From the NCBI GenBank assembly GCA_003136075.1, contig PNBP01000035.1, forward strand, positions 4,728-18,270: DNA of 13,543 nt, read 5' to 3'. A program made the translations under genes and the position numbers. Below the pieces are notes generated by a model. That model had not been told where the DNA came from. It searched no databases and was given only the letters and a program-made list of their open reading frames with translations. Source of the stretch: Methanoregula sp. (GTDB lineage Archaea > Halobacteriota > Methanomicrobia > Methanomicrobiales > Methanospirillaceae). Positions 2,489 to 13,543 of this stretch are shown here, piece after piece (position 1 is the first letter of the stretch; each line of letters starts with the position of its first letter).

Positions 2489-3607
2489 TCAAGTCGGGAT
2501 CCGTGTTGCCTTGTAGAACCCCCGTGATTCCGCGTCATTCCTGCTGGCAAATTGCATATCTTTCATCCTGAACTGCCAGACAATCCTACCCTGCGGGGTT
2601 ACCTCGATGATCCGGTTTGCCGCAGTAATCAGGGTATTCCCGTTCTGCAACCGGTCGGCATCACGGACAGGTTGGGAGAAGCCCGTATCTTTTGGAATAA
2701 CATAACTCCACACAACTTTACCTGTGGGGTCAATCTCGATAGCTACAGGTGGCCTTCCCGGATTTGCAAAAAGGATATTCCCGTCGGGTTCAACCTCGGG
2801 ATCATGCTGCTGGACCATGATGCCTTCTCCCATGGTCTTTACAACCTTTCCATCCCTGTCGACTTCGACGGTCAGGTTAAAATTCCTCAAACTGATGAGG
2901 GTATCGCCATTTTGCAGGCGACTCGCAGCATTGGTGTGTGTCCATCCCTGATCATTGATAGTGTCATAAGGTGAATGATCAAACTGATCTTTTGCGTACC
3001 AGGACCAGACAACCAATCCCTGTGGGGTGATCTCTCGTACCTCTGCATCCTGTATTGTGTCGAGCCCGTATCCCCCATCCACTATAAGAGTGTCACCATT
3101 CGAGAGTCGCTCAGCATCATGGGAGGCTTTTGGATCGATAAATTTCCACACAATGGCTTTCGAAGTGCGGTTGATCTCATAGATTCCATTACGCGGGAAT
3201 ACCGCAAGGATATCGCCATTTTGTAGAGACACAACAGAAAACCCGGGATTTACATAATCGGTCAGGTCTTCCGGAACATTGTACTGCCACACGATTTCGC
3301 CCACCATGTTCACTTCTATGATTCTTGGGTGGTCCAGATCATGGAGATCCCCCAGTAGTGTTGTGCCAGGAGCAATCATTTCGGGAACCAGGACATCTAC
3401 GACAAGAGCGGGATCTGCAATTCCACGAGGCTGTGCGACAACCTCCGGGGAACGGGTTACTTCAGGTGGGGCGACAGTTGATGATGGCCCTGCCGTGATC
3501 GCTGTCGTTGTGGATGGACCCGTGCTCCCTTGAGGAGATGTGCACCCGGCAGCAAGAATCACAGCAATGCAAAAAATCAAAAGAGAGATAATTATGCTTT
3601 TACGCAT
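2489..3607 (-). CDS. Arylsulfotransferase (ASST)-like beta-propeller lipoprotein
   Basis: The product has 372 residues from ATG 3607. It begins with a lipoprotein signal peptide, MRKS followed by a hydrophobic stretch and the lipobox LAAGC with Cys22, then a Ser/Thr/Pro-rich linker to about residue 65. It should therefore be lipid-anchored on the outer face of the membrane. The rest is a repetitive propeller with units of the type H-D-x-x-R-L-x-N-G-D-T-L (SHDAERLSNGDTL, ASRLQNGDTL, QQHDPEVEPDGNIL, DADRLQNGNTL) alternating with strands such as GKVVWSY and GRIVWQF. This resembles the arylsulfotransferase/PQQ-propeller family, in which histidines in the central channel handle the sulfate group. 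Activity is not certain, since methanogens carry many such paralogues. The frame is open upstream to a TTG at 3709, but only the ATG at 3607 puts the signal peptide at the N-terminus. It is divergent from the next lipoprotein. Confidence 0.8.
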   Translation of the reverse strand: MRKSIIISLLIFCIAVILAAGCTSPQGSTGPSTTTAITAGPSSTVAPPEVTRSPEVVAQPRGIADPALVVDVLVPEMIAPGTTLLGDLHDLDHPRIIEVNMVGEIVWQYNVPEDLTDYVNPGFSVVSLQNGDILAVFPRNGIYEINRTSKAIVWKFIDPKASHDAERLSNGDTLIVDGGYGLDTIQDAEVREITPQGLVVWSWYAKDQFDHSPYDTINDQGWTHTNAASRLQNGDTLISLRNFNLTVEVDRDGKVVKTMGEGIMVQQHDPEVEPDGNILFANPGRPPVAIEIDPTGKVVWSYVIPKDTGFSQPVRDADRLQNGNTLITAANRIIEVTPQGRIVWQFRMKDMQFASRNDAESRGFYKATRIPT

Positions 3608-3725
3608 ATCTCTGTGATTATATTCTGATGTGATAATTATTGCTTTTTGGTTTCCATGATATCCCATGAACCCAGACAAATTTCTTTTAGTGGTTCTGGA
3701 GAAATACAAAAGACAATATTAATGA

Positions 3726-3735: not shown

Positions 3736-3755
3736 GTGATTTAAAATTGGTAAAA

Positions 3756-4370
3756 ATGAACATGAAATCCTCGTTGGGTATTTGCTGCATGGTGAGCGTG
3801 TTATTGATGATAGGCATATTCAGTGCTGGATGTACATCACCTCAAAATGGGCAGAGTACTGCACAAAATAATCCTCCGGCTGCCACAACACCTTCTCAAA
3901 CCATGAATCCAGCAATCGCACCGACAACGCCAGCTGCAACACCGGCTTCAACAATTGCTCCAACAACCATCATGTCAACCGCAACAACCCAGACCAGCGA
4001 TATTTTAACGGTGACCCTTAATTCAGCAGTGAAGAAAACTCAGGTCGGGAGTTCCACCAATATGCCCGGTCATATTTTTGTTGTACTGGATATTACTATC
4101 CAAAATAATGATAAAAATAATGCTTTTAAATATACTGACGCATCATTTGCAGTGTTCGATAAATTAAACAAGAACAGACGTATTGCGATAACTTCCAAAA
4201 TTAATGGCGGGCTTGATAATCCTTTGGCATCAGGAACGATCCCGCTAAAATCAAAAACAACCGGTCAAATAGTTTTTGGTGAGGACGACAATTCAAATTC
4301 ATACAAGTTATATGTTTCAGATTCCACAGGAACTGTGCTAACAACCATAGATAATATAAATATTCCATAA
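3756..4370 (+). CDS. Secreted lipoprotein with DUF4352-like domain
   Basis: The product has 204 residues from ATG 3756. It starts with a short basic region and a hydrophobic helix ending in the lipobox FSAGC (Cys26), so it is a membrane-anchored extracellular lipoprotein. A Thr/Pro/Ala-rich linker covers about residues 30-80 and is probably O-glycosylated. The C-terminal ~120 residues form a predicted beta-sandwich with the pattern G(H/x)xFVVLDITIQNND...FKYTDASFAVFD..., as seen in DUF4352-type domains, whose function is unknown and which may bind ligands or other surface proteins. The residues after the lipid cysteine (CTSPQ) are identical to those of the divergent neighbour. The coding region is markedly AT-rich compared with the MFS and HEAT genes. 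A TTG at 3747 and an ATG at 3762 are alternative starts; the TATA spacing favours 3756. Confidence 0.75.
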   Translation: MNMKSSLGICCMVSVLLMIGIFSAGCTSPQNGQSTAQNNPPAATTPSQTMNPAIAPTTPAATPASTIAPTTIMSTATTQTSDILTVTLNSAVKKTQVGSSTNMPGHIFVVLDITIQNNDKNNAFKYTDASFAVFDKLNKNRRIAITSKINGGLDNPLASGTIPLKSKTTGQIVFGEDDNSNSYKLYVSDSTGTVLTTIDNINIP

Positions 4371-4760: not shown

Positions 4761-5717
4761 TTACATATCCGGCATTTTCATGGCAATCAAGGCAGCATGG
4801 ACGGCAATAAGAATATAGAGCGGGAACAGGATGGTATAGGATAAAGACTCGCCGCCGAACCGGAGCAGCCAGAGCGTCACGGTCACATCGAGCTGAAAGA
4901 TGAGGATCCCCCACCATTTGCCCAAATAGTTGTATCCCTGGCCGGGGAGGAGGAAATTCAGGAGTGCCGCGATCTTCGGGTTCTTCCGTATACGGGGTCT
5001 CCGGGAAATGCCACGGGGAAGATACATCAGGGGTATTCCCGCTTTTGCTGATACCAGAACCGATTTCCAGCGGACGGCACTGTTCTCATCCGCGAGAGCG
5101 CCTATCAGGGACGGTGCAACGCACTTATCATGGATCGCCCCGAGGAGATCGATTGCCTTCAAGCGGATATCAAGATCGGCATCTTTTCGTGCGGTTTCAA
5201 GCACATTTATGGCAGATATTCCCATATCCCTGAGTGCTCCCCATTCCTGCATGCCATAAAATAACCGGGCTTTATCAAGGGAAGTCTCCGGTTTCCACCC
5301 AATCTTTGCAAGCGCGAATGCAGCACCGTACCGGACATACTTGTCCTTATCACCGAGAGCTTTTTTCAGGCCCGGAATCGCACGTTCATCGCCGATCTCC
5401 CCCAGGGCAATTGCACACCCCCACCGGACTTCTGCCAGCTGATCGTCCAGGGCCTCAAGAAGCGGGTCAACCGCCAGGGGATCTTTGATGACTGCCAGTG
5501 CTTCAATAATCCCCAGTCGCAGGGCACGGTTTCTTGTTTTCAATTTTTTCAGAACGGTCCCGATCGCGACAGGGCCTAAAGATCCCAGCGATTTTGCTGC
5601 AGCGATCTGGAGCTCAAAATCATCGTTGGTGAGCGCCTGGATCAGGCCGGGGATATCCCCGTTCTTTGTCATGCCTGTAATATCCGGTTTTTGTTTTTTG
5701 TGTCCGAGCAAATCCAT
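4761..5717 (-). CDS. HEAT-repeat protein with C-terminal membrane domain (copy 2)
   Basis: The product has 318 residues. Residues 20-225 are tandem helical repeats of the HEAT/PBS-lyase type, for example LIQALTNDDFELQIAAAKSL and the unit containing VRWGCAIALGEIGDERAIPGL. Such solenoids usually bind other proteins. They are followed by a basic stretch (RRPRIRKNPK, 239-248) and the motif LLNFLLPGQGYNYLGKWWG (252-270). Two hydrophobic segments come next (about 271-287 and 294-312), ending in AVHAALIAMKMPDM. The glycine-rich motif recalls TM2-like membrane hairpins. The solenoid is therefore probably cytoplasmic and tethered to the membrane. The gene is a clear paralogue of the upstream copy, starting 9 nt after its stop, with a GAGGTG ribosome binding site overlapping that stop. 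Function is unknown; a scaffold or assembly role is inference. Confidence 0.85.
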   Translation of the reverse strand: MDLLGHKKQKPDITGMTKNGDIPGLIQALTNDDFELQIAAAKSLGSLGPVAIGTVLKKLKTRNRALRLGIIEALAVIKDPLAVDPLLEALDDQLAEVRWGCAIALGEIGDERAIPGLKKALGDKDKYVRYGAAFALAKIGWKPETSLDKARLFYGMQEWGALRDMGISAINVLETARKDADLDIRLKAIDLLGAIHDKCVAPSLIGALADENSAVRWKSVLVSAKAGIPLMYLPRGISRRPRIRKNPKIAALLNFLLPGQGYNYLGKWWGILIFQLDVTVTLWLLRFGGESLSYTILFPLYILIAVHAALIAMKMPDM

Positions 5718-5722
5718 AACCC

Positions 5723-5728
5723 CACCTC
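5723..5728 (-). promoter_or_regulatory. Ribosome binding site GAGGTG overlapping the upstream stop codon
   Basis: On the minus strand GAGGTG lies 5 nt before ATG 5717 and shares bases with the TGA of the upstream HEAT gene (5729-5727). This suggests translational coupling of the two paralogues. Confidence 0.6.
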
Positions 5729-6734
5729 ATAAATCCGGCATTTTGCGGGCAATATCCCACGCATGAACAGCAAAGATGACCGATACCGGAATCGGTATGG
5801 GGATTCCGGGAACCTGAAGGAAAATCAGGAATATGTACGTCCAGATTATTTTCAACGGGAAGAGGGTGAACATCAGCAGTGTTGTCATGTAAACCTGGAA
5901 AACAAGGAACCCCCACCATTTTCCCAGGTAGTTGTATCCCAGTCCCAGGAACAGGAAATTAAGAAGACCTGCGGCCCAGGGGTTCTTTCTTACCCGGGTC
6001 CGTTTGCTTAAGGCCCAGGGAAGATAGGGTACGGGGACCCGGCATTTTTTTGCGGCGATGAGTGCTTTCCACCGGTTCTTTGCATTGCTATCCCGGAGCA
6101 TACTGCCACAGACGTCCTGGGGTACCGGCACATGCATATGTTCAAGCGTTTCAATCGCCTCGTACCTTACATCAGGATCGGTATCTTTTACTACCCGGGA
6201 CAACGGCCCTATCGCTGCTGTGCCCAGAGGGATAATATCCTTCCATTCATGAAGTGCTATCAGCTGCCAGGTCTTTTCTTCCGGGGTCTCCGGTTGCCAG
6301 CCAAGTTGCCGGAGGGCGACCGCTGACCCGAATCTCACATACTTATCCGGGTTCATGAGTGCGTTTCGGAGTGAGCTTGTCGCAAGAGGATCGCCAATCT
6401 CTCCAAGCGCAAGGGCGCTCGCCCACTGGATTTCAGAGTGTGCGTCGTTCTCCAGCAGGTAGATTAACGGTCGTACTGCCCGTTTGTCTTTGATACCAGC
6501 AAGCGCTTCTATTGCCCCCAGTTTTCCGGGAAGATCATGCTCCAGGAGGGCATGAAGAAGGTGATCTACTGCTTCGGTTCCGAGAGTTCCCAGCGCTTCG
6601 GCCGCTTTCCATTGCACCGTGAAATCCGGGTGCTGCAACAAGCGGGTTAACTGTCCTATATCGTTTCTCTCCCGCAATCGTTCAATATCCGGACGAGTCT
6701 TGTGAAACTGGAGAAGCTCACAAACTGATTCCAT
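5727..6734 (-). CDS. HEAT-repeat protein with C-terminal membrane domain (copy 1)
   Basis: The product has 335 residues from ATG 6734. HEAT-like helical repeats run from about residue 22 to 235, with units such as QWKAAEALGTLGTEAVDHLL, IQWASALALGEIGDPLATSSL and VRFGSAVALRQLG. A basic linker (SKRTRVRKNP) follows, then the shared motif GLLNFLFLGLGYNYLGKWWG (256-275), hydrophobic segments to about residue 325, and the end AVHAWDIARKMPDL, nearly the same as copy 2. The frame is open 27 codons further up to ATG 6815, but I choose 6734. There the N-terminus aligns with copy 2 (HKTRPDI versus HKKQKPDI), and this ATG is 4 nt after the stop of the 83-residue gene, which would otherwise be overlapped. 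A tethered protein-binding solenoid is likely; the partner is unknown. Confidence 0.85.
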   Translation of the reverse strand: MESVCELLQFHKTRPDIERLRERNDIGQLTRLLQHPDFTVQWKAAEALGTLGTEAVDHLLHALLEHDLPGKLGAIEALAGIKDKRAVRPLIYLLENDAHSEIQWASALALGEIGDPLATSSLRNALMNPDKYVRFGSAVALRQLGWQPETPEEKTWQLIALHEWKDIIPLGTAAIGPLSRVVKDTDPDVRYEAIETLEHMHVPVPQDVCGSMLRDSNAKNRWKALIAAKKCRVPVPYLPWALSKRTRVRKNPWAAGLLNFLFLGLGYNYLGKWWGFLVFQVYMTTLLMFTLFPLKIIWTYIFLIFLQVPGIPIPIPVSVIFAVHAWDIARKMPDL

Positions 6735-6738
6735 GGTA

Positions 6739-6990
6739 TCACGACCACCCTGTCTGGTACAAGGATTGCCGGATTTCCTGTACTCCGGAACAGGTACCTG
6801 GTATTCCTGCTTCATCCAGAATATCAGAGACCACGGCTGCGTACTGCAGCCGGATACCTGCAGGAATACCTTTGCTGGTTATTGCATACCGTCGATAATG
6901 GCCGCATTCTGTCAGTTCGCGTCCCATGTTAATGAACCCCCGGAGATTACGACAATATTTTCTGTACCGGTTATTTTCAAATCGTGACAC
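6739..6990 (-). CDS. 83-residue protein of unknown function, first of the HEAT operon
   Basis: A GTG at 6990 is preceded 9 nt upstream by a clear AGGTGA ribosome binding site, and the stop TGA (6741-6739) lies 4 nt before the start of HEAT copy 1. The 83-residue product is hydrophilic and has no signal peptide or membrane segment. Its first third is rich in Arg, Asn and Tyr (RFENNRYRKYCRNLRGF). The middle HYRRYAITSKGIPAGIRLQY has the look of a winged-helix wing followed by a helix, so a small DNA-binding or adaptor protein is possible, but I cannot name a family. Three cysteines are present without a clear metal-binding spacing. The spacing to the HEAT genes indicates co-translation with them, and it may be their cytoplasmic partner. 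Confidence 0.7.
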   Translation of the reverse strand: MSRFENNRYRKYCRNLRGFINMGRELTECGHYRRYAITSKGIPAGIRLQYAAVVSDILDEAGIPGTCSGVQEIRQSLYQTGWS

Positions 6991-7047: not shown

Positions 7048-10000
7048 TCATTTCCGCCGCCCGTACATGATGAGATCGAATTCTTTCTTTCTGCGATACC
7101 GTGCCCATCCGGCATACCCGATACCGACCATAACGATACAGATCACGGTCAGGACAAGGTTGTGCATCAGGAGCCCGGCGCCCCAGGCACCCAGCCCGAT
7201 CATAATCTCGAGGGCATTTGCCGCCGGGGGTGATTTTGCCACCGGCTGCGGAGTTGCGATCGAAGCCTGAGCCGGGTTAGGGGCCGACGTTTGCTGAGCG
7301 GCACCGGAAGCCGGGTTGGCGGCAGATGGGACGGTTGTGACAGGAGCCGGGTTAGGGGCGGACATCCCCATCGGTTCGCTGAAGAGGGCAAAGTCCGAGA
7401 AATGGGTGGCTTGGGCTGAAACCGACCGGGTACCGGGGTTGGTTGTGGTTGAAAGGGACTCCCATGTTTGGGTCGATGTGCGGTAGTCCCGGATGACCGG
7501 TTCCTTGTTATTTGTCGTGAGGGCATTCCACTGGTTCTGGGTGGGGGTGAAGGTAATGGTGATACCCGGGCTGAACTGAGCGCCATCCGGCCCGCACTGA
7601 TACCCAATACCGCTGAACGTATCGTGCGATCCGGTCTCGGTTGCCGGTACCGAGCTGATGCTCATCGGCTGGATGTGAACATCAGCAAGCGGGTGACCGG
7701 CGCTGTTGGTTGCTTTGATACCCTGCGGAAGGGTCAGCAGCGCTACCTGGTCGTTAGACTGAACATCAATTGCTGCGGTAAGCACGCCGTTGATATCGGT
7801 TTTGAGCGGCGCGGTGTCCGTAAAAACCTGGGGCGGAGTCTGCTGCGCTGGTGTCGTCACGGGAACTGTCACACCGGGCGTTGGGGAATTTATCGCGCCA
7901 CTGCCGCCACCTTGCGACTGCTGGCTGGCGGCGGCCTGTGCAGCGAACCCGATCATCCCGAAGATCGAGAGCCCCGTAGAATTCGCATTGAACCAGTCAA
8001 GGTTTGTACTGGAATCATACCCGACCCACCGGGTGGTCAGAACCTGGGGGGTGTCGCTGTTATCCGGATACCGGATAACCCGAATCGATCCAATACCTCC
8101 ATTCTGGGATACCCATGTGTCGTTGATACTCATGTTGAGTACCACAGCGCTCGGGGCCAGGTTGCTGTTGATATTTTCGGTGTTGGTGAAATTGACGGTA
8201 TAGGCGATGTTCATAGTATTGGTGATACCGGCATTCTGTGCAGCCAGCTGGAAGGCATGAACAGTATTCGTTGTTGCGCCCTGGGTGATCGTGATGTTGA
8301 CCGGGGCGTTCGCCGTATAATTAGTCAAGGCCACGGACAGGGAGGTCGAGACGTCTCCGATCGATGGATCCAATGTCGCGGTGACCGGATTGCTCTGCAT
8401 GACGACCTGGCTGACATTCGCAACGGTGTAATCCCCGGTGGTTGCGTTGATGGTGACGTTTTCAGCAGACACCGTGGTGGTCTGCCAGAACGCGTTGCCC
8501 CCGGTGACGGTGAGGGTTGTATTGGTGGTGTTGGTGATACTGCCACCGGAGGTCCTCAGGGTAGTTATATTGACACTTAAAGTCTGGTTGTTGCCCACGG
8601 TCGAGAAACTGGTCCCGTTCAGAGCGGTGGTTGTAGTGACCGGTGGCGTATACCCGGTGACCTGCACCGTGCTGCTGTTGGTCAGTCCGGCACTGTTCAT
8701 GACGGTGAGCTTGACATTGAACACCTGTGGCCAGACAAACGTATGGACCGGGTTCTGTTCTATCGAGGTATTCCCGTCCCCGAAGTTCCAGTTCCATGAT
8801 AAATTGGTGCCGGTTGAGGTGTCATTGAACTGTACCGCGAACGGGACGGTGCCGGAAGTCACATTGGTCGTGAAGCCGGCGACCGGGGCTGTTCCACCTC
8901 CGCCAAGACTACCTCCTCCGGGACTGACCGTGATGTATCCGGTCTTCCGCGTGCTGGTGTAGCCTCCGGTATTGTATGCCTGCAATGCGACCGTGTAGTT
9001 CCCTGCTGCAGTATATGTATGCGACGGGTTCTGTGCCGATGACCCGGTGGGCTGGAACCGCCACACATCATTTTTATAGCCGCCACTGTCCCACCCACCC
9101 ATCAGTACGATGCTGCCGTCCGGCATCGCCACACTGCTGAGATCGTTTCTTGCCGTCCACCCGGCACTCGCGGTCAGCTGAGTCCATGTTATGCCGTTAT
9201 CGGTAGACCGCCATACGTCATTTTTATAGCCGCTGCTGTCATAACCGCCCATGAGTACGATGCTGCCATCCGGCAGTGCCACACTGCTGTGACCGGTTCT
9301 TGCCGTCCACCCGGCACTTGCGGTCTGCTGAGTCCATGTTATGCCGTTATCAGTAGACCGCCACACGTCATTCCTACGGCCACCGTCATCCAAACCGCCC
9401 ATGAGTACAATGCTCCCATCCGGCAGTGCCACACTGCTGTGAAATTTTCTTCCCGTCCACGCAGCACCCGAAGTCTGCTGCGTCCATGTAGCGCCTTTAT
9501 CCGTTGACCGCCAGGTGTCATTCCAACTGCCCCACCAAGTCTCACCACCTGTGAGGACAATGCTGCCATCCGGCATCGCCACACTGCTGTGATATTCTCT
9601 CCCTACCCACCCGGCACTTGCGGTTTGCTGTGTCCACGTTGCCCCATTATCCGTTGACCGCCAGACGTCATTCTTTCCGCTGCCATCAAAACCACCCATC
9701 AGCACAATGCTGCCATCTGGTAATGCTACACTGGTGTGACCGAATCTTGCCGTCCAACCGGCACTTGCGTTCACCTCAGTCCACGAAACGCCATTGTTCG
9801 TTGAGCGCCACACGTCATTATTCGAAATGCCGGTATTACCGCCCATCAGCAAGATGCTACCGCCCGACATCATCACGCTGCTAAAATCGCTTCGTGCCAA
9901 CCACCCGGCATTCGCAGTCTGCTGCGTCCACGCATCTGTGTAATTCTCATCGCCAAAGAACCAGGCCCAGCCGGTGGGGCTGTGCGATGACATGTCGCTA

Positions 10001-13000
10001 AAGGAGACCGAAAGCGGGGCAGTACCGGAAGTGGGAATGCCATAGAACATTGCGGTGGGTTTGACGGATCCCCCGGAACTGGCAGTGATATAGCCGGTCT
10101 GTCGCGTGCTATTGTATCCGCCAGCGTTGTATGCCTGCAACGCTACTTGATAATTTCCCGGAGCGGTATAGGTATGCGAGGGGTTCTGCACCGATGACCC
10201 GGCGGGTTGGAATCGCCACACATCATACATATAGTGGGAGTCATATCCCCCCATCAGGATGATGCTGCTATCCGGTATCACCATACTGCTGAATCCCTCT
10301 CTTGCCGGCCACCCGGCACTCGCATTTATCTCAGTCCACGTAGCGCCGTCGTCTATGGAACGCCATACGTCATTATCAGAATGCCAACCGCCAACGCCGC
10401 CGGGGGGCCAACCGCCACCGCCCATCAGCACGACGCTGCCATCCGGCATCACCACGCTGCAATGACCTCCTCGTGCCGACCACCCGGCACTCGCATTTAT
10501 CTCAGTCCACGTAGCACCATTATCTGTGGATCGCCATGTATCATTGTATAAACTGTTGAAGCTGTTGATTTCACCGCCCATCAGCACAATGCTGCCATCC
10601 GACATCACCACAGTGGAGTGTTCAGCTCTTGGCGACCATCCGGCACTCGCGGTCTGCTGCGTCCAATGTGTGCCGTCATCTGTGGACCGCCACACGTCGT
10701 TATAATACGTGCCGCCGTTACGACCGCCCATCAGCACGATGCTGCCGTCCGGCATTGCAACGGCGCTTTGATACTCTCTGGTCGACCACCCGGTACTCGC
10801 GTTCATCAGTGTCCAGGTAGCTCCGTAATCCGTGGACCGCCAAACGTCATTCTTGCAGCCGCTGCTATAACCCCCCATGAGGACGATGCTGCCGTCCGGC
10901 AATGCCACGCTACTCTGATAACCTCTTGCAGACCACCCGGCACTCGCGGTCTGCTGCGTCCACGTAGCACCTTCGTTCGTCGACCGCCACACGTCATTGG
11001 TAAAGTTGCCACTGCTACTGTCATAACCGCCCATCAGTACAATGCTGCCATCCGACATCACCACGTTGCTGAAACCCCATACCAAACCCGGGACATTCCC
11101 GCTCACCTCCGTCCAAGGCTGCGTGTAATTCTCGTCACCGAAGAACCATGCCCAGCCGGTGGGAGCGTGGGATGACGAATCAGAAAACGAGACGGTAAGT
11201 GGAGAAGTGCCGGAAGAGGGAGTGCCGGAGAATGAAGCGACCGGGGCTGCGATCCCAGAAGCACTAGCCAGCGGGAGATAGTCGATATTTCCCGTTGTGA
11301 TTGTATAGATGAAATCGCAGATCCTATCATGATTAGTATCAATGCACGTCTGTGAATAACCCGTGCCGGAAGGATTTGCCCAATAGTTCCCGCCAAGGTA
11401 AGGACCGCCGTTAATGTTCGTGCCTGTTGTCTGTGTGGTATTCCACGTATTTCCCAAGATAGTGCCGTCGAAATTTACATTGACCGTGTTGGAGAAGTAA
11501 TTGTCATAAATCGTATTCGAACCCGGTGTTCCTGGACTTGCATCAAATTCTATTCCGGAGATACTGTTGTTACGAATATTATTGTGGTAAATCTGGTTGT
11601 TGGTCGCAGATGACCCTTCTATCTTAATGCCATAATAACTATTTTCAAAAGTATTGTTAGTAACAATATTATTTTGTCCGTCGTAAATCGCAAGTTCCGA
11701 ATTGCCAGAAACAACATTATCCGTGATGGTATTCGAATTACTTCCCGGCCAAATTGCAATCCCTGTACCCGCCGAAACCGTGCAATTGCTTATCGTGTTG
11801 GATGTGGATGATATCAGGAAAATACTATCATAATTATTTCTTCCCGTGATATGTTCTATTTGTCCGTTTGATACCTGGTAGAAATCTATACCTTGCCACG
11901 TACCATTCACGGTCACATTTTTTACGGTAATATCTGAAAGTGGTCCCCCGGTATATGCATAAACTCCATGGATATTAGTTGAAGAAGGCATTACGCCGTC
12001 AATAGTATGACCCATTCCATCGAACGTGACATGTGAGGTGGTGATTGTAATGCCATTCCATGGATCACTAGAGGGTGTATTCGTGATGTCATTCTGGAGT
12101 TCATACGTGCCCGGGGATGAAATTACCGCAGGGCCGGTTATCGGGATGGTAGTAGTACCCGAAGTCACATTGATGTACCCGATCTTCTGCGTGCTGTTGT
12201 ATCCGCCACTGTTGTATGCCTGGAGCGTGACCGTGTAGTTCCTTGCTGATGTGTAGATGTGAGACGGGCTCTGCAGTGACGAGCCGACGGGCTGGAACCG
12301 CCACACATCATTTGTATTGCTGCCGCTACGCTGACCACCCATCAGCACAATGCTGCCATCCGGCATTGCCACGCTGCTGAAACCAGATCGTGCCGACCAT
12401 TCGGCGCCTACGTTCACTTCTATCCACGTCGCGCCGTTATCAATAGATTGCCAGACGTCATTCCTATAGCCACTAGCATCCTCCCCGCCCATCAGCACGA
12501 TGCTGCCGTCAGGCATCGCCACGCTGCTGAGACGGGTTCTTTTCGCCCACCCGGCACTCGTGTTCACTTGAGTCCAGGTAGCGCCGTTATTCGTCGATCG
12601 CCACACATCATTCTTCAATCCGCTACTGGTTGAACCACCCATGAGTATGATGCTGCCGTCAGGCATCGCCACGCTGCTGTGACAGTATCTTGCCGACCAC
12701 CCAGCGCTTGCATTCACTTCCGTCCAATGTGCGCCGTTATCTGTCGATCGCCACACGTCGTTATAATAGGTGCTGCCGGCAGTTCCGCCCATCAGTACGA
12801 TGCTATCATCCGGTAATGCCACGCTGCTGTGACATTCTCTTGCTGACCACCCGGCACTTGCGTTCACCTCAGTCCACGTTGTGCCATTATCCGTTGACCG
12901 CCACACGTCGTTATAATAGGTGCTGCCGGCAAAAGCATAACCGCCCATCAGCACGATACTGCCATCAGATAATGCGACGCTGGTGGGATAGTATCTCGCT

Positions 13001-13543
13001 GACCACCCGGCACTTGCGTTCACTTCTGTCCACGTTGCACCTTGATCTGTCGATCGCCACACGTCATTATAATCAGTGGGAGATGAATGAAGCCCGCCCA
13101 TCAGCACGATACTGCCGTCCGGCATCACAACGTTGGTATGTTCAGCTCTTGTCCCCCACCCGGCACCCGGAGTCTGCTGCGTCCACGCTCCCGTGTAATT
13201 TTCATCGCCAAAGAACCAAGCCCAGCCGGTGGGACTACCTGATGAAGAATCGGTAAACGAGACTGTAAGCGGGGCAGTGCCAGATGTTGAAGTGCTGGAG
13301 AATGAGGCGCTCGGTGCCGTTCCACCTCCCCCGGAACTGACCGTGATGTACCCGGTCTTCAGGGTAATGTTGAACCCGATATTATTGAATGCCTGAAGGG
13401 CTATCTGATAGATCCCTGCTGTGGTGTAGGTATGGGACGGGTTCTGTACCGACGACCCGGCGGGATTGAACCGCCACACATCATTCTTCAATCCGCTACT
13501 GGTTGAACCACCCATGAGTATGATGCTGCCGTCAGGCATCGCC
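7048..13543 (-). CDS. Giant modular surface protein: PKD domains with inserted propellers, beta-helix, C-terminal anchor (5' truncated)
   Basis: The frame is open from the right window edge to TGA 7050-7048, giving at least 2164 residues; the N-terminus lies outside. Order from N to C: end of a propeller (13543-13468) and the second half of its PKD domain (13467-13336); split PKD with propeller B (13320-12160); NosD-like beta-helix (12159-11254); split PKD with propeller C (11247-10075); split PKD with propeller D (10062-8923); uninterrupted PKD with FGDG and NPVHTF (8889-8656); an Asn/Thr-rich beta region resembling the PGF-pre-PGF surface domain, with RVIRYPD and STGLSIFGM (8655-7930); a beta domain ending HFSDFALF (7818-7372); a Pro/Ala/Thr stalk (7371-7213); one membrane helix (7203-7105); and a basic tail RYRRKK. 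Many N-x-S/T sites suggest glycosylation. The protein is expected on the outer face, C-terminally anchored, serving adhesion or cell-envelope functions (inference). Confidence 0.92.
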   Translation of the reverse strand, partial: AMPDGSIILMGGSTSSGLKNDVWRFNPAGSSVQNPSHTYTTAGIYQIALQAFNNIGFNITLKTGYITVSSGGGGTAPSASFSSTSTSGTAPLTVSFTDSSSGSPTGWAWFFGDENYTGAWTQQTPGAGWGTRAEHTNVVMPDGSIVLMGGLHSSPTDYNDVWRSTDQGATWTEVNASAGWSARYYPTSVALSDGSIVLMGGYAFAGSTYYNDVWRSTDNGTTWTEVNASAGWSARECHSSVALPDDSIVLMGGTAGSTYYNDVWRSTDNGAHWTEVNASAGWSARYCHSSVAMPDGSIILMGGSTSSGLKNDVWRSTNNGATWTQVNTSAGWAKRTRLSSVAMPDGSIVLMGGEDASGYRNDVWQSIDNGATWIEVNVGAEWSARSGFSSVAMPDGSIVLMGGQRSGSNTNDVWRFQPVGSSLQSPSHIYTSARNYTVTLQAYNSGGYNSTQKIGYINVTSGTTTIPITGPAVISSPGTYELQNDITNTPSSDPWNGITITTSHVTFDGMGHTIDGVMPSSTNIHGVYAYTGGPLSDITVKNVTVNGTWQGIDFYQVSNGQIEHITGRNNYDSIFLISSTSNTISNCTVSAGTGIAIWPGSNSNTITDNVVSGNSELAIYDGQNNIVTNNTFENSYYGIKIEGSSATNNQIYHNNIRNNSISGIEFDASPGTPGSNTIYDNYFSNTVNVNFDGTILGNTWNTTQTTGTNINGGPYLGGNYWANPSGTGYSQTCIDTNHDRICDFIYTITTGNIDYLPLASASGIAAPVASFSGTPSSGTSPLTVSFSDSSSHAPTGWAWFFGDENYTQPWTEVSGNVPGLVWGFSNVVMSDGSIVLMGGYDSSSGNFTNDVWRSTNEGATWTQQTASAGWSARGYQSSVALPDGSIVLMGGYSSGCKNDVWRSTDYGATWTLMNASTGWSTREYQSAVAMPDGSIVLMGGRNGGTYYNDVWRSTDDGTHWTQQTASAGWSPRAEHSTVVMSDGSIVLMGGEINSFNSLYNDTWRSTDNGATWTEINASAGWSARGGHCSVVMPDGSVVLMGGGGWPPGGVGGWHSDNDVWRSIDDGATWTEINASAGWPAREGFSSMVIPDSSIILMGGYDSHYMYDVWRFQPAGSSVQNPSHTYTAPGNYQVALQAYNAGGYNSTRQTGYITASSGGSVKPTAMFYGIPTSGTAPLSVSFSDMSSHSPTGWAWFFGDENYTDAWTQQTANAGWLARSDFSSVMMSGGSILLMGGNTGISNNDVWRSTNNGVSWTEVNASAGWTARFGHTSVALPDGSIVLMGGFDGSGKNDVWRSTDNGATWTQQTASAGWVGREYHSSVAMPDGSIVLTGGETWWGSWNDTWRSTDKGATWTQQTSGAAWTGRKFHSSVALPDGSIVLMGGLDDGGRRNDVWRSTDNGITWTQQTASAGWTARTGHSSVALPDGSIVLMGGYDSSGYKNDVWRSTDNGITWTQLTASAGWTARNDLSSVAMPDGSIVLMGGWDSGGYKNDVWRFQPTGSSAQNPSHTYTAAGNYTVALQAYNTGGYTSTRKTGYITVSPGGGSLGGGGTAPVAGFTTNVTSGTVPFAVQFNDTSTGTNLSWNWNFGDGNTSIEQNPVHTFVWPQVFNVKLTVMNSAGLTNSSTVQVTGYTPPVTTTTALNGTSFSTVGNNQTLSVNITTLRTSGGSITNTTNTTLTVTGGNAFWQTTTVSAENVTINATTGDYTVANVSQVVMQSNPVTATLDPSIGDVSTSLSVALTNYTANAPVNITITQGATTNTVHAFQLAAQNAGITNTMNIAYTVNFTNTENINSNLAPSAVVLNMSINDTWVSQNGGIGSIRVIRYPDNSDTPQVLTTRWVGYDSSTNLDWFNANSTGLSIFGMIGFAAQAAASQQSQGGGSGAINSPTPGVTVPVTTPAQQTPPQVFTDTAPLKTDINGVLTAAIDVQSNDQVALLTLPQGIKATNSAGHPLADVHIQPMSISSVPATETGSHDTFSGIGYQCGPDGAQFSPGITITFTPTQNQWNALTTNNKEPVIRDYRTSTQTWESLSTTTNPGTRSVSAQATHFSDFALFSEPMGMSAPNPAPVTTVPSAANPASGAAQQTSAPNPAQASIATPQPVAKSPPAANALEIMIGLGAWGAGLLMHNLVLTVICIVMVGIGYAGWARYRRKKEFDLIMYGRRK
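7105..7203 (-). other. C-terminal membrane anchor and stalk end of the giant surface protein
   Basis: A single hydrophobic segment (MIGLGAWGAG to GIGYAGW) is followed by ARYRRKKEFDLIMYGRRK and the stop. The positive tail predicts that the C-terminus is cytoplasmic and the bulk of the protein outside. No PGF motif is seen next to the helix, so cleavage by an archaeosortase is not indicated. Confidence 0.75.
8656..8889 (-). other. Uninterrupted PKD domain of the giant protein
   Basis: PVAGFTTNVTSGTVPFAVQF leads to WNWNFGDG, then only nine residues to NPVHTF, and on to the last strands, about 78 residues in all. It serves as the internal reference showing where the other PKD domains of this protein are interrupted. 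Confidence 0.85.
8923..10062 (-). other. PKD domain split by propeller D
   Basis: The first half (10062-9931) runs from PTAMFYGIPTSGTAPLSVSF to GWAWFFGDENYTDA. The second half (9051-8923) runs from PTGSSAQNPSHTYTAAGNY to GYITVS. Joined together they make an ordinary PKD domain; the propeller occupies the loop between FGD and NPSHTY. Confidence 0.85.
9052..9930 (-). repeat. Propeller D: six tandem ~150-bp Kelch/Asp-box repeats
   Basis: Six units of about 50 residues run from WTQQTANAGW at 9930 to NDVWRFQ at 9052. Consensus pieces are W-S/T-A-R-x-x-H-S-S-V-A-M/L-P-D-G-S-I-V-L-M-G-G and N-D-V-W-R-S-T-D-N-G-A-T-W-T. The GG plus ND...W pattern is Kelch-like and STDNGATW is an Asp-box. The sixth unit ends in NDVWRFQPTGSS instead of the Asp-box. 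One unit has LTGG for LMGG and another starts SGGSILLMGG. Confidence 0.9.
10075..11247 (-). other. PKD domain split by propeller C
   Basis: The first half (11247-11116) starts APVASFSGTPSSGTSPLTVS and ends at WAWFFGDENYTQP. The second half (10206-10075) starts PAGSSVQNPSHTYTAPGNY and ends GYITASS. The insertion point is the same as in the other copies. Confidence 0.85.
10207..11115 (-). repeat. Propeller C: six tandem Kelch/Asp-box repeats
   Basis: Six units run from WTEVSGNVPG at 11115 to DVWRFQ at 10207, the same type as in propeller D. The fifth unit carries a Gly/Pro/Trp-rich loop extension (GGGGWPPGGVGGWHSDN), and the first lacks the usual SAGW-S-A-R element. The last unit again ends in WRFQPAGSS. 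Confidence 0.9.
11254..12159 (-). other. NosD-like right-handed beta-helix module
   Basis: About 300 residues begin with the typical entry GTYELQNDITN...ITITTSHVTFDGMGHTIDG. Several short beta-helix rungs follow (NTISNCTVSAGTGIAIW, NTITDNVVSGN, NIVTNNTFENSYYGIKI, NQIYHNNIRNN), then the characteristic end GGNYW...DTNHDRICDFIYTI...NIDYLPL. The DTNHDRICD segment keeps Asp/Asn positions of a calcium loop but has cysteines flanking it. Such modules are found in surface proteins and carbohydrate-active proteins. GC content is near 40% in sample lines, against about 58% in the propeller arrays. Confidence 0.85.
12160..13320 (-). other. PKD domain split by propeller B
   Basis: The first half (13320-13186) runs from TAPSASFSSTSTSGTAPLTV to WAWFFGDENYTGA. 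The second half (12291-12160) runs from PVGSSLQSPSHIYTSARNY to GYINVTS. It is directly followed by the beta-helix module. Confidence 0.85.
12292..13185 (-). repeat. Propeller B: six tandem Kelch/Asp-box repeats
   Basis: Six units run from WTQQTPGAGWGTRAEH at 13185 to NDVWRFQ at 12292. Units 2 and 3 share STYYNDVWRSTDNG with long identical DNA. Unit 4 (STSSGLKNDVWR) is the one repeated exactly at the window edge. The last unit ends in WRFQPVGSS. Confidence 0.9.
13468..13543 (-). repeat. Partial last blade of a further propeller (A) at the window edge
   Basis: PDGSIILMGGSTSSGLKNDVWRF is a final-blade end followed by NPAGSSVQNPSHTYTTAGIY, the second half of a split PKD domain (13467-13336). At least one more propeller module therefore lies to the right of the window. 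Confidence 0.85.

Follow-up and report, generated by a model that had tools for sequence, protein, structure and literature searches.

Beta-propellers encoded within the sequence of another domain are familiar from enzymes of the prolyl oligopeptidase/DPP4 type, in which the host is an alpha/beta-hydrolase, the arrangement is not repeated in tandem and the propeller gates the active site. In archaeal surface proteins, propellers are found together with PKD domains. The title of Jing 2002 names PKD, propeller and beta-helix for archaeal surface-layer proteins, and secreted surface proteins with a PKD fold and Kelch/YVTN propellers, proposed to act in cell-cell interaction, were described for the ARMAN archaeon Mia14 (PMC5498576). 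Here, a giant protein is described that is encoded in a stretch of 13,543 nucleotides from Methanoregula sp. (contig PNBP01000035.1, positions 4,728 to 18,270; hereafter the window, whose numbering is used throughout). It shares its three domain types with PDB entry 1l0q ('Surface layer protein') and the proteins of Jing 2002 but arranges them differently: the PKD is cut once, at a single position in its FGD-to-NPxHTY loop, and a Kelch/Asp-box propeller of six repeats occupies the cut. The observations as a whole are best explained by a membrane-anchored protein of PKD modules that each hold a propeller in this loop, a reading that we regard as very probable.

The PKD match in 1l0q runs without a break (residues 303-378), and this PKD presumably comes after a YVTN propeller of seven blades, in tandem with it; the propeller described here is of the six-bladed Kelch/Asp-box type and lies inside the PKD, which it interrupts. 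Six-bladed Kelch domains also occur in LZTR1 (9mez), KLHDC2 and Keap1, but these are human proteins; the nested unit is 19% identical to LZTR1 in a comparison with the PDB, and to our knowledge none of the three has a PKD host. The Mia14 proteins likewise combine PKD with Kelch/YVTN propeller domains, but they are fusions with a CARDB-like adhesion module, and a domain-in-domain insertion goes unmentioned in the available part of that account (PMC5498576). For Asp-box propellers, a 'velcro' closure, at most n-1 Asp-boxes, and a conserved bottom face with a variable, functional top face have been described, and a putative archaeal Kelch/Asp-box hybrid, A3CWT3, has been named (PMC2716378). All three properties fit the nested unit. 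The text of that paper contains no occurrence of 'PKD', and what it calls 'type 2' nests the other way round, with another domain inside the propeller (V. cholerae sialidase). In PorZ of Porphyromonas gingivalis, the N-terminal segment closes the second propeller, which, as we read it, places one propeller within the sequence of another domain; the host there is the second propeller, and the arrangement is single-copy and seven-bladed (PMC5121618). No description of a propeller inserted in a PKD was found in the open-licence literature, a scope outside which most subscription papers fall, and the view of the initial annotation that the nested topology was not a described one agrees with this. 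What appears to be new is the propeller nested in a PKD, and its repetition; the meeting of these domain types in archaeal surface proteins, and propellers inside the sequence of other domains, were known.

The open reading frame (ORF) of the giant protein lies on the minus strand (7048-13542) with an open N-terminus; in the assembly it comprises 2327 amino acids and reaches the very end of contig C97. Pfam identifies Kelch, PKD and NosD (right-handed beta-helix) domains, so that PKD, Kelch and NosD beta-helix, a set of the S-layer type, are present in one protein with a C-terminal hydrophobic segment. NCBIfam yields only the generic delta-60 repeat TIGR02608 above its cut-off (89.8 bits; cut-off 76.5), plus a match far below cut-off. 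FGDENYT sites are located at 13212, 11142 and 9957 and the corresponding resume sites, SPSHIY or NPSHTY, at 12270, 10185 and 9030; a further NPSHTY at 13443 marks the end of an incomplete fourth unit (unit A). The features of the protein are as follows.

13468..13542, minus strand: unit A (incomplete in the window), end of the propeller, last blade; the upstream part reaches the contig end, with an X stretch near the window edge
13336..13467, minus strand: unit A, C-terminal PKD half (GSSVQNPSHTY...); own PKD profile positions 37-84, Pfam PKD_4 47-85 at C97:18066-18182
13201..13320, minus strand: unit B, N-terminal PKD half, ending WAWFFGDE; own PKD profile and Pfam PKD_4
12292..13200, minus strand: unit B, inserted Kelch/Asp-box propeller of six repeats; repeat and Pfam matches
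12163..12291, minus strand: unit B, C-terminal PKD half (SPSHIY); own PKD profile and Pfam PKD_4
11365..11982, minus strand: right-handed beta-helix of the NosD type between units B and C; Pfam PF05048, E 4e-35, residues 521-726
11131..11250, minus strand: unit C, N-terminal PKD half; own PKD profile and Pfam PKD_4
10210..11130, minus strand: unit C, inserted propeller of six repeats; repeat and Pfam matches
10078..10209, minus strand: unit C, C-terminal PKD half; own PKD profile and Pfam PKD_4
9946..10065, minus strand: unit D, N-terminal PKD half; own PKD profile, Pfam PKD_4 and AF2 model
9055..9945, minus strand: unit D, inserted six-bladed propeller
8923..9054, minus strand: unit D, C-terminal PKD half; own PKD profile, Pfam PKD_4 and AF2 model
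8650..8892, minus strand: ordinary, uninterrupted PKD; own profile positions 3-83 of 85, 106 bits, and Pfam PKD_4, 66 bits
7099..7191, minus strand: hydrophobic segment near the C-terminus, probably transmembrane, with a basic tail after it; hydropathy scan

The cut was examined with a PKD profile of 85 positions, for which 27 uninterrupted PKDs were taken from the window and from fetched loci, the ordinary PKD listed above among them. Along the giant protein, matches to positions 3-45 (or 50) and to 32/37/44-84 alternate around each insert. The flanks of unit C cover positions 3-45 (E 2e-13) and then 44-84 (E 1e-9), and those of unit D 3-45 (E 8e-13) and 37-84 (E 9e-10). The initial annotation had PKDs B, C and D cut after FGD(EN) and resumed at NPSHTY or SPSHIY, and these complementary matches on the flanks of the located sites bear it out, as does the near-full match (3-83) of the PKD it had called uninterrupted, with the normal spacing of FGD (8784) and NPVHTF (8754). 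Its insert spacing of 290-305 residues requires correction: in the window units, FGD and P(S)H were measured to be 312, 317 and 307 residues apart, and 305, 310 and 300 residues are excised to join the halves. Over the window and the 39 loci L022-L060, which together hold 962 ORFs, PKDs were complete in 54 cases and split into a pair in 38; another 18 fragments had no partner. Judged by these profile matches, complementary PKD pieces flank the inserts far beyond chance.

Joining the halves restores a PKD. In all 33 units tested, those with inserts of 285 to 345 residues, the joined halves match the profile with 79-108 bits, compared to 35-62 and 27-46 bits apart. The joined halves of unit D qualify by profile as a PKD domain (Pfam PF18911/PF00801), scoring 53.0 bits against Pfam PKD_4 (positions 11-85 of 85; cut-off 27), while the separate halves score 17.2 (4-43) and 29.8 bits (48-85). 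Across the junction, joined unit D aligns with the solved PKDs of collagenase ColH, 2kzw and surface-layer protein 1l0q, the last with E 9e-10. An unbiased part of the census is the scan of the source genome with PKD_4, made without Kelch seeding. It gave 37 matches, including six N-terminal halves, all ending at position 46, and seven C-terminal halves, starting at 46-48. The other 24 are other PKDs, three of them partial with different break points (C101:15640, 35-85; C101:14806, 4-55; C52:3185, 4-57); both on C101 coincide with X stretches. The PKD of the nested unit is cut once, at PKD_4 46|47. All inserts carry propeller repeats, a statement biased by the set it describes, since the sequences were collected by similarity to the nested unit.

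The flanks could instead be short PKD-like motifs or vestiges, with the propeller a tandem domain whose ends are decorated. Just one of the 13 PKD halves of the source genome exceeds the curated Pfam cut-off, a fact by which annotation hides the nested unit, and two homologues (P0027, P0108) keep the N-terminal half before the propeller with no detectable C-terminal half after it. But the scores of the joined halves approach the 106-140 bits of the ordinary PKDs behind the profile, both halves are conserved across 32 units, and the predicted structure described below is confident in the PKD part, all of which makes vestiges highly unlikely.

A second rearrangement had to be weighed because in 7 of 10 places where a C-terminal half precedes the next N-terminal half the two are only 0-5 residues apart, so that local pairing is conceivable. 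The PKDs would then be circularly permuted, each C-terminal half pairing with the N-terminal half of the next unit, and the propellers, un-nested, would follow one another as beads on a string. The order of the halves and the single-unit ORFs speak against this arrangement, which we rejected as highly improbable. Sixteen of the 33 half-bearing ORFs have exactly one N-terminal and one C-terminal half, in this order, flanking the insert; in 21 of the 33 the PKD elements start with an N-terminal half, which has no C-terminal half before it to pair with; and units are often separated by complete PKDs (pattern NCFNC, with F a complete PKD). Nowhere in these 33 ORFs do two N-terminal or two C-terminal halves succeed each other, or does a complete PKD follow an N-terminal half, and unpaired halves are only first or last in their ORF. 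A confident model of one isolated unit likewise argues against permutation.

Each insert in the window consists of six repeats with five Asp-boxes, the complete Kelch/Asp-box set that the initial annotation had seen there. The Asp-box motif is of the type S-x-D-x-G-x-x-W and lies in the C-D (3-4) turn of the blades. Five Asp-boxes per six repeats are found in nearly all units (Pfam BNR_6, 39.4 bits; cut-off 27), and the Kelch assignment is given by the Kelch repeat profile, four-strand blades and the propeller fold. Closure would be of the 'velcro' type: blade 6 receives its outer strand from the incoming chain, which exits again from strand C of that blade. The ends of the propeller meet at the would-be sixth Asp-box turn and it is therefore insertable in a loop, with the PKD unbroken. 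AF2 modelled the unit as a single protein, with an alignment of 32 of the 33 units (L022, from the same genome and fetched by its place, was left out), at a predicted template modelling score (pTM) of 0.92. The predicted local distance difference test (pLDDT) of the blocks in both PKD halves is 94-98 except for the first ten residues (79). Strands were assigned at 11-14, 17-19, 22-28 and 36-40 in the N-terminal half and at 352-355, 359-369 and 372-385 in the C-terminal half (unit numbering). The single-protein prediction proposed at the outset thus gave confident strands in both halves, which would pack into one sandwich; the fold of the nested unit is strongly predicted.

The same layout recurs in many records. 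A contig scan gave 36 loci, of which L025-L048 are from methanogens/euryarchaea (including Methanoregula, Methanoculleus, Methanogenium, Methanocalculus, Methanosarcina and records named to higher rank only) and L049-L060 from bacteria. A split pair lies within one ORF in 23 of the 24 archaeal loci, and our PKD profile finds no PKD halves in the 12 bacterial ones. Of 873 homologues, the best 120 were classified: 98 carry the two halves on either side of an insert, 11 have neither half and 11 are partial or other. The unit model matches 77 of 232 genomes of the class at E 1e-30, propeller-only matches included, with full-length matches in families f1, f3, f4, f5 and f6; in a phylum sample, 43 of 392 genomes match at 1e-40, with full-length matches also in f8. 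The nested unit is widespread in several families of one methanogen order, and in Methanosarcina. Upstream of the unit, a hydrophobic stretch, judged by hydropathy, is present in 20 of the 22 ORFs in which the unit begins within 220 residues of the open-frame start; the exceptions are the contig-edge locus L043 and the incomplete window ORF. The source genome is a fragmented metagenome bin (197 contigs, completeness 82.9%) in which the ORF of the giant protein ends at a contig edge and a unit on C120 has only two repeats, as an assembly or repeat-collapse artefact might produce. Such an origin of the architecture is refuted by the one-contig genomes G109, with eight adjacent units in a frame of 3366 amino acids, G085, G088 and G192; many independent records show it as well, and the window copies are 65-68% identical to unit D, which together leave this explanation a negligible probability.

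A complete six-bladed propeller in one PKD loop, with the unit then duplicated, had been proposed initially and finds support in profile, structure-prediction and tree evidence. Duplication in tandem holds for the directly adjacent units C and D, whereas B and C are separated by the NosD-type beta-helix. Of the 132 PKD rows found (75 ordinary, 57 nested), 111 entered the PKD trees, as random draws plus the window rows, and one branch separates nested from ordinary PKDs (SH-aLRT 99; 56 versus 55 rows). Beyond the junction, nested PKDs share the Q and A of LQAYN (45 of 56 each) and a later Y (40 of 56), perhaps as contacts to the propeller. The propeller tree was built from 38 of 143 nested rows (drawn from 51 locus-derived ones) and all 17 free rows, with 10 partial rows left out; in it, all 38 nested rows cluster with eight closely related free ones in a single group (97), outside which lie five Kelch-only methanogen rows and four bacterial ones. 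Propellers without a PKD host occur in small proteins (L083, L085, L086) and in tandem with PKDs (L081, L082, L084). For these eight free-standing loci, chosen for matches without PKD ends, five match the unit from 47/48 to 342/344 and so share the boundaries of the insert; the others match at 61-353, 49-350 and 35-347. At L084 (open frame from ~925), a propeller of the same kind follows PKDs and is succeeded by a lipase/esterase-like region (HGWTGSPETW...HSMGG). Since one branch separates the two PKD classes, a single founding insertion is likely: an existing propeller would have entered a PKD once, giving rise to the module of methanogens, which would then have multiplied, up to eight copies in a row, with duplication, exchange and some losses.

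The two faces of the propeller differ. Mean loop entropy across 32 units is high in BC (2.62 bits) and DA (1.83) and low in AB (0.73) and CD (1.07), and it is at the CD position that the PKD joins the propeller; by topology, the variable face would point away from the PKD. Along a PKD rod, the propellers would project as side branches, with the conserved face toward the PKD and the variable face outward for binding, in cell-cell contact or in adhesion to surfaces or polymers. For such a binding or adhesion role we see about even chances. The nesting could also be real and the propeller mere bulk, a spacer or envelope filler without binding, which is possible though doubtful. PKD, propeller and beta-helix are the very set named for archaeal surface-layer proteins in the title of Jing 2002, but the opposite faces evolve differently, BC and DA loops being variable and AB and CD conserved. 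Among 51 units, two pairs without overlap are 80-98.5% identical; for these, the ratio of nonsynonymous to synonymous substitution rates (dN/dS) reaches 0.99 for the variable face against 0.37 for the conserved one (0.56 overall), as expected of a recognition face but suggestive only. Further still, and rather unlikely, this may be an evolved branching module: a PKD rod with up to eight outward heads, whose variable faces diversify in the manner of a repertoire that recognises partner cells or surfaces, with the residues particular to nested PKDs (in the C-terminal half Q-A and Y, and before the cut the F and E of WAWFFGDE) fixing the branch angle.

Several observations weigh against the nested, once-inserted and binding module, among them the two incomplete homologues mentioned above. 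The top-face dN/dS comes from two sequence pairs only, and relaxed constraint would look the same. The packing of the PKD halves is inferred from the confidence and strands of the AF2 model. In the comparison with the PDB, the best 50 rows were filled by Kelch chains that barely cover the PKD part, so that the absence of PKDs there is no evidence. Without the junction columns, the PKD tree needs three changes (37 in shuffles), and the propeller tree needs four; more than one gain, or losses, are for this reason possible. Repeat numbers deviate in L024 (two), L045 (four), L023 (five, with an X stretch) and L046 (12), and in L044 the two halves sit in different ORFs. A two-unit AF2 model was poor (pLDDT 61.7, pTM 0.42, five-row alignment) and speaks neither for nor against a rod.

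Two of the deviating loci may be described in their own right. At L046 (open frame from ~5158), one PKD is interrupted by 602 residues containing 12 repeats with 11 Asp-boxes; these may form two propellers that share a PKD loop, or one ring of unusual size. L024, from the source genome (C120:1281-3485), is a nested unit with an insert of two repeats, too few for propeller closure, and is either an assembly repeat collapse or a decayed unit.

Elsewhere in the window, two adjacent HEAT-repeat-like proteins with hydrophobic C-terminal regions (4761-5717 and 5727-6815, minus strand) have a 115-nt stretch in common at 71% identity and are apparently tandem paralogues. An arylsulfotransferase-like protein (PF05935) with a lipoprotein-like N-terminus is encoded at 2489-3649 (minus strand), divergent to the gene for a DUF4352 protein, also with a lipoprotein-like N-terminus, at 3747-4370 (plus strand).

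The PKD is usually seen as a simple spacer; here it is the host for a whole propeller. The membrane-anchored extracellular protein would consist largely of conserved compound modules, each a PKD beta-sandwich with the propeller in its loop, and homologues that carry names such as 'kelch repeat' or 'PKD' proteins would belong to a widespread surface module of methanogens. Such a module would be a natural design for side-branching rods, and methanogen surface biology may become testable through one expressible domain of ~390 residues.
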